DNA from: Nitrosophilus labii
GTDB lineage: Bacteria > Campylobacterota > Campylobacteria > Campylobacterales > Nitratiruptoraceae
Length of the DNA: 64,000 nt
NCBI RefSeq assembly: GCF_014466985.1
Contig: NZ_AP022826.1
Coordinates: forward strand, 558,001 to 622,000
Direction of reading: 5' to 3'
The first letter of the stretch is position 1, and the number at the start of each line of letters is the position of its first letter. A program made the translations under genes and the position numbers. The notes beneath the pieces were generated by a model. That model had not been told where the DNA came from. It saw only the letters and a list, made by a program, of their open reading frames with translations, and did not search any database. Positions 27,201 to 31,198 of this stretch are shown here, piece after piece.

Positions 27201-28130
27201 ATGAGTCTAGATTTTGATAAACCTTTGTATGTTTTAGCGCCTTTAGCCGGATTTACGGATCTTCCGTTTAGGAGTGTTGTTAAAAAGTTTGGAGCAGACC
27301 TAACCGTAAGCGAGATGATAAGCTCTAACGCCTTGGTTTATGACTCAAAAAAAACCTTTAAAATGCTTGAAAAATCACCGCTAGAAACTCCTTATGCCGT
27401 TCAGATAGCCGGAAACGACAAAGAGATCGTCAAAGAGGCGGTACTGAAACTAAACGAAATCGACGGCATAGATATCATCGATCTAAATGCGGGTTGTCCG
27501 GTTCCTAAAGTTGTTAAAAATGGTGCGGGAAGCGCTCTTTTAAAAGATATGAAAAAACTTGGCGAGATTGTTGAAACTATAAAAAAGTATAGCAAAAAAG
27601 AGTATATGAGCGTAAAAGTGAGGCTGGGATTTAGCGAAAAGATACCCGAAGATATAGCCAAGACTTGCGAAAGTGCAGGGGCGGATTTTATAACCGTTCA
27701 CGGCAGAACCAGAAGCGGTTTTTTTAAAAGCGAGGTGGATTACGAGGCTATCGCTAGAGCTAAAGAGTCCGTAAAGATTCCGGTTATCGCAAACGGCGAT
27801 ATAGACAGTTTCGACAAAGCGGAGTATGTTTTAAGTATAACAAAATGCGACGGCGTAATGATAGGCAGAGGCGCCGTAGGTAATCCTTGGATATTTTATC
27901 AGTTAAAAAACACTAAAGCGGATGTGAGCGAAAGTATAAAAAAAGAGATAATACTCGAACACTTTGATCAAATGATAGAGTTTTACGGAGATTACGGCGC
28001 CGTAATGTTTAGAAAACATCTTCACACATATTCAAAAGGGTATAAAGGCGCCGCTAGCTTTAGAGACAAGATAAACAGAATTACCGATCCAAAAGAGATG
28101 AGAGAAGAGATAGAGAGATTTTTTTCATGA
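27201..28130 (+). CDS. dus: tRNA-dihydrouridine synthase (DusB type)
   Basis: A 309-aa FMN enzyme reducing uridines in tRNA D-loops. It shows LAPLAGFTDLPFRS at the start, the catalytic Cys in DLNAGCPVPKVVKNGAGSAL, the phosphate-binding HGRTRSGF, and PVIANGDIDS with GVMIGRGAVGNPWIF. GAGG lies before the ATG. Its last four bases (ATGA) contain the start of cas6, so the two are translationally coupled. Confidence 0.95.
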   Translation: MSLDFDKPLYVLAPLAGFTDLPFRSVVKKFGADLTVSEMISSNALVYDSKKTFKMLEKSPLETPYAVQIAGNDKEIVKEAVLKLNEIDGIDIIDLNAGCPVPKVVKNGAGSALLKDMKKLGEIVETIKKYSKKEYMSVKVRLGFSEKIPEDIAKTCESAGADFITVHGRTRSGFFKSEVDYEAIARAKESVKIPVIANGDIDSFDKAEYVLSITKCDGVMIGRGAVGNPWIFYQLKNTKADVSESIKKEIILEHFDQMIEFYGDYGAVMFRKHLHTYSKGYKGAASFRDKINRITDPKEMREEIERFFS

Positions 28131-28966
28131 GATATATAAAGATAGCGGTTACCTCTAAAAGAAGCGCAACAAGACCTCCAAGGTTTATAGGTTCAATGGT
28201 TAGAGGCTGTTTTGGCGTATCTTTAAAAAAGATAGTTTGTATAAATCCCTCTTACGAATGCGGCGGCTGTTTTGCTAAGGATGATTGTATCTATTTTGAT
28301 TTTTTCGAGAAGAAAAATCATATACACAGATTTAGACTAGATATCGAAATTGATCCTCAAAAGATCGATTTTTCTATCTATCTTTTTGAAAAAAGCTGTG
28401 ATAGATACCCTTATATATTAAGCGCCGTTCATAAGATGTTTTACGATACGGGATTTGGAAAAAAGAGAGAAAAACTTCCTTTGGAGAGGATTGTTTGTAA
28501 TGATACTTTGATTTTTGAAAATGGAGAGTTTTTACAGAAGAAGATTGAATCGGCTCTTTTTAGCTGTGAAACTTTTAGTAAAGATATCTGTCTATCGTTT
28601 ATTACTCCACTTCGTATAAAATATGAAAATAGACTATTGACTCAAACCCCATCTTTGCGGCATCTGATCCAGTCTATCTATAATCGCTATTTAACTATAT
28701 TGGGTTTGAAGCCTCAAAAGCTCCCTTTTGAGCCAAAAGGAGTAGTTGGAAGTAGCGATATAAAGTTTTTGGAACTTCAAAGATACTCAAATAGACAAAA
28801 AACTAAAATGAATCTAGGCGGTATCATAGGCGAAATGGAGATAAAAGAGATCGATAAAGAGAGTTTTGAACTTTTAAAACTAGCTGAAATCATAGGCATT
28901 GGAAAGCAGACCGTATTTGGTCTTGGAAAAATTAAAGTGACAGATATGGTCGCTGAAACTAAGTAA
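28127..28966 (+). CDS. cas6: CRISPR-associated endoribonuclease Cas6
   Basis: A 279-aa RAMP protein that cuts CRISPR precursor RNA inside the repeat. The C-terminal glycine-rich loop GIGKQTVFGLGKIKV (from about residue 257) is diagnostic for Cas6. Near the N-terminus, PRFIGSMVRGCFGVSLKK and four cysteines (38, 45, 48, 54; motif CGGCFAKDDC) match the RAMP Cas6 subgroup with a Cys cluster. It overlaps dus by ATGA and is followed, after 196 bp, by the CRISPR array on the same strand. No cas1, cas2 or effector genes are in the window, so it may process transcripts for a distant type I or III effector. Confidence 0.88.
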   Translation: MRYIKIAVTSKRSATRPPRFIGSMVRGCFGVSLKKIVCINPSYECGGCFAKDDCIYFDFFEKKNHIHRFRLDIEIDPQKIDFSIYLFEKSCDRYPYILSAVHKMFYDTGFGKKREKLPLERIVCNDTLIFENGEFLQKKIESALFSCETFSKDICLSFITPLRIKYENRLLTQTPSLRHLIQSIYNRYLTILGLKPQKLPFEPKGVVGSSDIKFLELQRYSNRQKTKMNLGGIIGEMEIKEIDKESFELLKLAEIIGIGKQTVFGLGKIKVTDMVAETK

Positions 28967-29162: not shown

Positions 29163-29404
29163 GTTACAACTAAGACCCGATTTGAAGGGGATTGAGACAT
29201 AAAATTTAAATATCCATTTTTTTCATCCATCCATTCAGTTACAACTAAGACCCGATTTGAAGGGGATTGAGACCCTTGTTGCCCAAAACTATCAATACCA
29301 CATATTTTTACAATGTTACAACTAAGACCCGATTTGAAGGGGATTGAGACTTTTTTTATTTTTCTTTTCATCTTAAACTCCTACTAATAAAATTGCTAAA
29401 ATAG

Positions 29405-29575
29405 CTCAAGAGATAAGCAGGTAAGACCCCATTTTATATAGATCACTGCCCATGGAAGGAGGGCAAATCTCAAAGGAGTTTGTCACCTGCTTACAATCCC
29501 AATAGGTTGATTGGGCGCTAAGCCCCTGTCACGATGGAGACAGGATGAAAGCAGGCGCCTGCTTATCTGTTGAGC
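29405..29575 (+). ncRNA. Putative IS110 bridge RNA
   Basis: The non-coding 5' end of the element is dense in pairing. Outer stem AGATAAGCAGG (29411-29421) pairs with CCTGCTTATCT (29558-29568). An alternative first domain stem AAGCAGGT (29415-29422) pairs with ACCTGCTT (29485-29492), capped by GCCC-N9-GGGC. Then come hairpins CCCAAT/ATTGGG (29498-29515) and CCTGTC/GACAGG (29525-29544). Bridge RNAs of IS110 members occupy this position and fold into target- and donor-binding loops. The loop base AAAGGAGTTT (29472-29481) is the exact complement of AAACTCCTTT in the reconstructed target. Ends are approximate. Confidence 0.7.
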
Positions 29576-29607
29576 TTATATTTTTTTCATTTGAAAGGAG
29601 GATTGGA

Positions 29608-30804
29608 ATGCGTTGGTTTCTTGGAATCGATATCTCCAAAAGCAGTTTCGATACCACACTGTTAGATGGAAAAAGTGGCAAACTCCATCACGATAGATTC
29701 ACAATGGACAAAGAGGGGCTCGATGCACTTATGAAGCATCTTACTCCTTTGCCCAAAGACTCTCTGTTTATCGTGATGGAATCAACCGGCATCTACCATC
29801 TTCCCTTGCTCGCTTTTTTGCTAGAACAAGGGTTTACATGCAGTGTGATCAATCCCACACTGCTCAAACACCACATCCAATCCTCTACACTGAGAAAGAG
29901 CAAGACCGACCGCAAGGACGCTTTGGCCATCGCCCGGTTTGCCTCGATGCACCATGCTTCGTTGAAGCCTGCAAATCTGGACGCTTTAAGAAGTATCCGA
30001 CCTCTTCTAAGAGAGCGTGAAGCTCTCAGTAAAGAGGTAGCCAAACTCAAAACAGACATCAAAGCCTTGGTCGATCAGCTCTTTCCAGAACTTTCAAAGA
30101 ACACCAATATCTTTACCCGGAGCATCTTGCATCTGCTCCTGCAAGCTCCTTCACGCAAACGCGTTAGGAACTTGAAGGAGAAGAAGATTCAGCGTATTTT
30201 AGACAAAGCCAGTGGCAACAAAGTTAGACTCTCAGCCAAAGAGATTCTTGCTTTGGCTAAAAACTCTATAGGCATCAACAATCCCCATCTAGAAACAGTA
30301 CTCCAATCAAAAATCAGAAGATTGGAGCATGTCCAATCTGAGATTGAAACTCTCGAAAAAGCCATCGAAGAAGCCGTGAAGGAAGAAAGGCTCGATGATG
30401 ATATCCACACCCTCACTTCCATCCCTGGTATTGGGACTACTACGGCTACAAACTTTGTTGCTGAAATTGGCTCTATCAAGCGTTTCGCTTCAGTCAAACA
30501 GCTTTGTGCCTTTATTGGGTTTGACCCAGCCATCCGTCAAAGTGGTAGCTCCATTGATAGCAAAGGACATATCTCCAAAAGGGGACACGCCTCGCTTCGA
30601 AGAACCCTTTGGCAGATGGCGATAGGAGTGATTCGATGCCTTCCCAAATACAAAGCCTATTATGAAAAGAAACGTCAAGAAGGCAAAACCTTCAAACAAG
30701 CTGTTGTCGCTGTGGGCAACAAATTGCTTCGTCTGCTATTTACGCTGTTAAAGAACAAAATGCCATTTCACGAGGAATTGGCTATGAAAGGTGTAACTGC
30801 GTAA
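29608..30804 (+). CDS. IS110-family recombinase (transposase)
   Basis: A 398-aa DEDD recombinase. The RuvC-like N-domain has Asp8 (GIDISKSSFD), Glu58 (VMESTGIYH), Asp101 and Asp104 (KTDRKDA). A coiled-coil middle follows, and the C-terminal Tnp domain has the helix-hairpin-helix-like SIPGIGTTTATNFVAEIG and the catalytic-Ser region RQSGSS at about 311-315. All parts appear intact, so it may be active. I chose the ATG at 29608, preceded by GAAAGGAGG; an in-frame ATG at 29545 lies inside the RNA stem. It works with the upstream bridge RNA to recombine the element into a matched target. Confidence 0.95.
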   Translation: MRWFLGIDISKSSFDTTLLDGKSGKLHHDRFTMDKEGLDALMKHLTPLPKDSLFIVMESTGIYHLPLLAFLLEQGFTCSVINPTLLKHHIQSSTLRKSKTDRKDALAIARFASMHHASLKPANLDALRSIRPLLREREALSKEVAKLKTDIKALVDQLFPELSKNTNIFTRSILHLLLQAPSRKRVRNLKEKKIQRILDKASGNKVRLSAKEILALAKNSIGINNPHLETVLQSKIRRLEHVQSEIETLEKAIEEAVKEERLDDDIHTLTSIPGIGTTTATNFVAEIGSIKRFASVKQLCAFIGFDPAIRQSGSSIDSKGHISKRGHASLRRTLWQMAIGVIRCLPKYKAYYEKKRQEGKTFKQAVVAVGNKLLRLLFTLLKNKMPFHEELAMKGVTA

Positions 30805-31198
30805 CACCTCTCTTATCTATTTTTGAAAGGGTTTGTTTATAGTTGACTCCTTTTTTTATTTGTTACAACTAAGACCCGATTTGAAGGGGATTGAGACTGT
30901 CTTTCAAGCCAAAGACATAAATCTTGTACAATATCTAAGTTACAACTAAGACCCGATTTGAAGGGGATTGAGACTAGTTGTTCGAGTTCATCATCATGTG
31001 GTATATCGGCGTTTAATGTTACAACTAAGACCCGATTAGAAGGGGATTGAGACTAGCAATTTCTTTCATCGACATATCAGATTGGCACATATGTTACAAC
31101 TAAGACCCGATTAGAAGGGGATTGAGACCCCACAATGTATACTTTATCCATTTTTTCTCCTTATTACTTAGAGGTTACAACTAAGACCCGATTAGAAG

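Follow-up and report, generated by a model that had tools for sequence, protein, structure and literature searches.

A predicted bridge RNA with guides matching translation-initiation signals in an IS110-group element of Nitrosophilus labii

The window analyzed here is a 64,000-nucleotide stretch of DNA from Nitrosophilus labii (NCBI RefSeq assembly GCF_014466985.1, contig NZ_AP022826.1, positions 558,001 to 622,000, forward strand). It carries an intact insertion sequence of the IS110 group, in which the recombinase gene is preceded by a long non-coding stretch (29380-29607), as expected for this group. The non-coding stretch is predicted to specify a bridge RNA, and the target guides of this RNA match the Shine-Dalgarno (SD) sequence and start codon of genes. 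The element and its junctions comprise the following features:

29380-30848, forward strand: intact IS110-group insertion sequence, 1469 bp with one copy of the CT core counted, defined by a second identical copy, the copy junctions and an empty site
29608-30804, forward strand: intact IS110 recombinase, 398 amino acids, with DEDD and Transposase_20 domains (Pfam) and the PDB relatives ISCro4 (9t56) and IS621 (8wt6)
29369-29377, forward strand: left target CATCTTAAA, in which CAT (29369-29371), the complement of ATG, lies six bases from the core; the left target guide pairs with it
29378-29379, forward strand: copy of the CT core derived from the target, at the left junction, assigned from the junctions of copy L082
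30843-30848, forward strand: right end TTGACT, a -35-like box, with the donor core CT at 30847-30848
30849-30853, forward strand: right target CCTTT, the complement of the SD-like AAAGG

The element, its copies and its junctions

The recombinase matches two Pfam domains, PF01548 (DEDD_Tnp_IS110, 5e-33) and PF02371 (Transposase_20, 1e-25). It is related in sequence to the solved recombinases of IS621 and ISCro4, and alignment to the latter shows that the D, E, D/D and serine motifs are retained. By sequence, the element belongs to the IS110 family and, within it, to the IS110 group as a predicted bridge-RNA element. Assignment to the IS1111 group was rejected, since the covarying RNA described below lies upstream rather than downstream of the transposase gene (tnp) and no end-to-end inverted repeat occurs among the repeats listed. 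The same genome has a second copy at a different site, identical over the whole element, as well as L010, a dead copy that has diverged, and L011, a remnant. A scan of genome contigs for relatives found one close relative, and a search of viral contigs for relatives found none.

Comparison of copies fixed the element ends, with CCTACTAATAAA... at the left, ...TTTATAGTTGACT at the right and a CT core common to target and element. The copy L082 has a TT core at its left junction (1258-1259) and CT at its right junction, which shows that the target supplies the left core and the donor the right one, and so pins the point of strand exchange. This is the outcome expected from top-strand cuts just after the core, the mode described for IS621 (PMC11208158). 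The uninterrupted site of another insertion, L009, survives in a congener (L118) as AAAAGGAGGACAAT-ATG, and the joined flanks of L009 read AAAAGGAGGATAAG-ATG. The window copy sits inside a spacer of a clustered regularly interspaced short palindromic repeat (CRISPR) array, with perfect 36-nt repeats on both flanks, and its removal in silico restores a spacer of 42 nt among neighboring spacers of 39-45 nt. The junctions, the empty site of the congener and the restored spacer together establish that insertion is exact and occurs without target duplication.

The element splits the array within 29163-31198, and a Cas6 gene (28127-28966) adjoins the array. The spacer that was hit contains an SD-ATG sequence, arisen by chance or captured, and no gene.

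Fold and guides of the predicted RNA

The following features are assigned in and beside the predicted RNA:

29401-29578, forward strand: predicted bridge RNA, with a terminal stem formed by 29401-29420 and 29559-29578 and with covariation
29425-29484, forward strand: target-binding loop, with a GAC/GTC stem and an inner hairpin (29440-29470)
29430-29439, forward strand: left target guide CAUUUUAUAU, in which CAU matches the start codon; nine of ten positions pair with the target, including two G-U pairs
29472-29478, forward strand: right target guide AAAGGAG, identical in sequence to an SD, pairing with CTCCTTT (core CT plus CCTTT)
29479-29480, forward strand: handshake-guide position, occupied by UU here and by UC in relatives, with the donor GA adjoining the core as its complement; placed according to PMC11208158
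29505-29512, forward strand: left donor guide GGUUGAUU, whose partner is AGTTGACT in the right end (score 7 of 8, with two G-U pairs)
29528-29539, forward strand: probable right donor guide ...UGGAG, with CTCCT of the left end as partner (four of five pairs); the weakest assignment
29397-29402, forward strand: -10-like TAAAAT, which in a circle would form a promoter with the right-end TTGACT at 17-bp spacing; TATAAT in the relatives L060 and L067

The preliminary description of this region proposed a bridge RNA with a guide complementary to its own insertion site. An alignment of nine homologous left ends, from elements whose recombinases are 48-100% identical, could be fitted to one structure. 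Changes on both sides were found at 27 of the 53 predicted pairs, 95.2% of the cells in the alignment are paired, and none of 500 shuffles reached the observed covariation; within the terminal stem, 9 of 19 pairs covary. The window sequence itself folds more stably than its shuffles (z = -5.5), and its minimum-energy fold has the long terminal stem (29401-29420 with 29559-29578). The stem is followed by a target-binding domain and then a donor-binding domain, each with an internal loop. The first domain had been described as closed by AAGCAGGT (29415-29422) and ACCTGCTT (29485-29492). That pairing survives in about 95% of the cells across the homologs, yet it is one of two exclusive alternatives, and the minimum-energy fold uses the terminal stem instead. 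Four mutually complementary AAGCAGG/CCTGCTT segments (29415-29421, 29486-29492, 29549-29555 and 29558-29564) permit two mutually exclusive foldings, both conserved and with nearly equal support. Rfam has no match in the RNA region, its sole match in the window being a transfer RNA.

Also noted earlier was a ten-nucleotide match, and AAAGGAGTTT (29472-29481) is indeed the exact reverse complement of AAACTCCTTT, which spans the core of the reconstructed target. Such a match is as improbable by chance as had been supposed (2 of 3000 dinucleotide shuffles and 7 of the 3560 CT sites elsewhere in the window, or about 0.001-0.002). The conserved guide is shorter, being the seven bases of AAAGGAG, and the remaining three bases fit this copy fortuitously; the UU or UC that follows AAAGGAG occupies the handshake position, where it pairs with the donor GA. 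This right guide pairs at seven of seven positions at both copies in this genome, and for 16 right targets the pairing score is 5.5 of 7 or better. The left target guide has CATCTTAAAC as its partner in the target. The two target guides pair with the bottom strand on the left and the top strand on the right, core included, and the core pairing of the left guide is often G-U or a mismatch.

A convincing donor guide had been missed in the first inspection. One is now recognized at the left donor position, where the score is matched by 0.07% of random 8-mers and where seven elements score 7-7.5 of 8. A covarying two-loop fold, the guide order and strand sense of IS621, a donor guide that fits the right end and the tracking of targets by loops (see below) are the reasons for reading the region as an IS110-group bridge RNA, and on this evidence it very probably behaves as one.

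A consensus scan of 29370-29620 detected no internal promoter or terminator. The predicted promoter arises only across the circle junction, where right and left ends would form TTGACT-N17-TAAAAT, or TATAAT in relatives; the corresponding sequence is weak in L065 and L066.

Targets and their variation with the guides

Twenty insertions were gathered, all of close relatives with either a recombinase at least 48% identical or a match to the RNA covariance model. In all 20, the complement of a start codon lies 5-7 nt to the left of the core, 19 times as CAT (for ATG) and once as CAC (for GTG). By way of background, CAT occurs at that distance in 6 of the 50 CTCCTT sites of the window when the element is excluded. 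Wherever the right flank is known, the complement of an SD sequence, of the CTCCTT type, lies there, with CCTT in 12 of the 13 known type-1a right flanks and CTTT in the other one. None of the insertions was found within a gene. Nineteen precede open frames that resemble gene starts (among them signal peptides and cytochrome c), the element always facing away from the gene, and the twentieth is the CRISPR-spacer copy. That copy lies at no gene start, arguing that the sequence rather than the gene context is recognized. The left end begins with CCT, so that AGGAG-N5-7-ATG is reconstituted toward the gene once this end is joined to the CT core. These comparisons support the conclusion that the putative guides match the SD sequence and start codon and thereby explain where the copies are found. 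The preliminary description had cautioned that AAGGAG resembles a ribosome site; with a ribosome-binding site as the target itself, this resemblance proved to be the key to the finding.

If the loops are guides, changes in them should track changes in the targets. Because copies from a single genome have a common guide, the permutations treated each guide class as a unit, and the number of classes is small. The match of left guides to their own targets exceeds that to the targets of other classes, the observed value being reached in 7 of 5000 class permutations, and the same test for right guides gave 67 of 5000. A GTG start occurs at a single target, that of L011, and L011 is also the sole element whose left guide has CAC instead of CAU. 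This element (150-310) is a decayed copy from which the donor-loop domain has been deleted. On the right side, L065, L066 and L078 have AUAUGAG or AUACGAG in place of AAGGAG, with right targets that read CTCGTAT, CTTGTAT and CTCATAT. The left guide of L065 and L066 carries UUUUCCUUA or UUAUUCCUUA, and their left target contains TTTCCTT, also an SD sequence. The insertion site of L065 (139-1720) coincides exactly with the left end of an L074-type IS110 element, one IS110 within another. Identical loops at unrelated targets, which would speak against guidance, were not encountered; the genes downstream are unrelated, and the SD/start-codon motif is always the same.

Proposed mechanism, alternatives and related elements

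The best explanation for these observations is, with high probability, an RNA-guided IS110-group element that targets translation-initiation signals. The element would excise as a circle, in which the joined right and left ends make the promoter for transcription of a bridge RNA of about 180 nt from the left end. Bound by the recombinase, the RNA would pair through its donor loop with the element's own end (TAGTTGA-CT), through its left guide (CAU plus a U-rich stretch) with the strand bearing the ATG start codon, and through the right guide AAAGGAG with the SD complement. The recombinase would then catalyze strand exchange at the CT core, with insertion expected after CT in the target CATCTTAAACTCCTTTT, so that the element lands in front of the gene and faces away from it. 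The CCT left end would rebuild AGGAG-N5-7-ATG beside the gene and leave the coding sequence uncut, and expression of the gene could continue.

Several features sit uneasily with this mechanism. The two stem pairings are interchangeable, and the choice of fold lies beyond sequence alone; a 5' stem-loop of the IS621 type is absent. The probable right donor guide pairs at only four of five positions; the pairing of IS621 at the same place is also discontiguous. Many left guides consist of U-runs and carry little information, one site (L063) scores 4.5 of 10 with its left guide, and the 5-7 nt range in the distance between start codon and core means that the left guide must slip or that its pairing is partly dispensable. 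With regard to tracking, the GTG/CAC case amounts to a single event, and this in a decayed element, while the right-guide variation comes from a single lineage of three elements.

Recognition by the protein alone would be one alternative. The recombinase itself would recognize CTCCTT or SD-like DNA, and the likeness of the loop would be a by-product of the CTCCT common to the left end and the target; indeed, the left end starts with CTCCT, and the right guide consequently also fits the element's own end. This alternative is improbable, however, because right guide (AUAYGAG) and right target (CTYRTAT) have shifted together in L065, L066 and L078, whose recombinases are 48-52% identical to that of the window, because the left guide likewise fits and tracks its targets, and because RNA-guided targeting by IS110 elements is already published (PMC11208160). 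Enrichment for SD sequences would also follow if elements inserted anywhere and harmful insertions were lost, and it is true that intergenic insertions are generally better tolerated and that 0 of the 20 lie within genes. Survivorship would not create the exact register (5-7 nt, CT core, CCTT) or the single orientation seen in 20 of 20, which need sequence recognition, nor would it explain the CRISPR-spacer copy, with its SD-ATG-like sequence but no gene; it is very unlikely to be the explanation. Just as little probability attaches to the idea that the region is only a messenger RNA leader, in which AAAGGAG serves as the ribosome site of a leader peptide and the fold attenuates transposase expression. 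The SD-like AAGGAG and the location upstream of the transposase gene would suit a leader, but neither ATG nor GTG occurs at the spacing of an SD sequence downstream of 29478, the AAAGGAG belongs to an internal loop and gives way to AUAYGAG in relatives whose targets differ, and the two-loop architecture and donor guide would be left unexplained.

The RNA-guided mechanism receives further context from known systems. Like IS621 (PMC11208160, PMC11208158), the element has a predicted 5' non-coding RNA, a predicted junction promoter, a target loop that precedes the donor loop, a left guide for the bottom strand and a right guide for the top strand, a CT core, a handshake position and a homologous recombinase (8wt6). 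It differs in that IS621 targets repetitive extragenic palindromic (REP) elements rather than an SD sequence and start codon, and in that the left guide here tolerates spacings of 5-7 nt. The 5' end of the RNA is predicted to pair with the 3' end, in a stem of about 19 bp, where IS621 has its 5' stem-loop, and for this reason the element is not filed as IS621-type. The seekRNA of ISEc21, of IS110 type (PMC11187229), likewise comes from the non-coding region upstream of tnp and has a bottom-strand match before a top-strand match, and natural reprogramming has been reported for it. It differs in its targets and in its shorter RNA, and no donor guide was noticed in that paper.

The target class itself is already known from IS900 of Mycobacterium avium paratuberculosis, an IS110-family element that has an opposite-strand hed frame and the target motif CATGNNNNNNTCTCCTT (PMC8141618); citing Doran 1997, that paper describes it as targeting translation-initiation signals. 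Compared by the published motif only, the two targets are essentially alike, with a start-codon complement, a short spacer and CTCCTT following one another in both, and CAT-spacer-CTCCTT is the target found among the relatives analyzed here. The preference of IS900 has been known since 1997, without an RNA explanation as far as could be searched, and the guides of the relatives offer a testable mechanism. In a literature search beyond which subscription papers and most preprints lay, no paper was found that joins IS900 with a bridge RNA or guide, and none on SD-directed bridge RNAs. Within that search, what is new is a predicted bridge RNA whose guides spell out the target and co-vary with it.

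Nearly every bacterial gene offers an SD/start-codon signal as a landing site, which suggests a way for an element to spread without breaking genes. If the interpretation is correct, such an element would be RNA-guided and site-specific, yet would have landing sites in any genome and would rarely break genes. The naturally varied guide-target pairs could also inform programming rules, among them rules on variable spacing and on the use of a terminal stem where IS621 has a 5' stem-loop. There is a reasonable, somewhat better than even case that several IS110 lineages have evolved guides that read SD sequences and start codons, with ends that keep or reconstitute a functional SD sequence and so spare the downstream gene, as a general strategy including IS900 and elements of Campylobacterota and Enterococcus. 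Distant IS110 elements of the Campylobacterales (L068-L075, 26-31% identical) have start codons 8-11 nt from the junction and an SD sequence at the left side of the core. In four Enterococcus plasmid elements, compared for left flanks and left guides only, SD/start-like left flanks are copied by candidate left guides in the upstream RNA: UACCUCC at TACCTCC (L133), UCACCUCC at TCACCTCC (L136), UUGCCUC at TTGCCTC (L138), and GUAUUACCUCC at GTATTGCCTCC (L137), the last with the flank variants GTATT[A/G]CCTCC.
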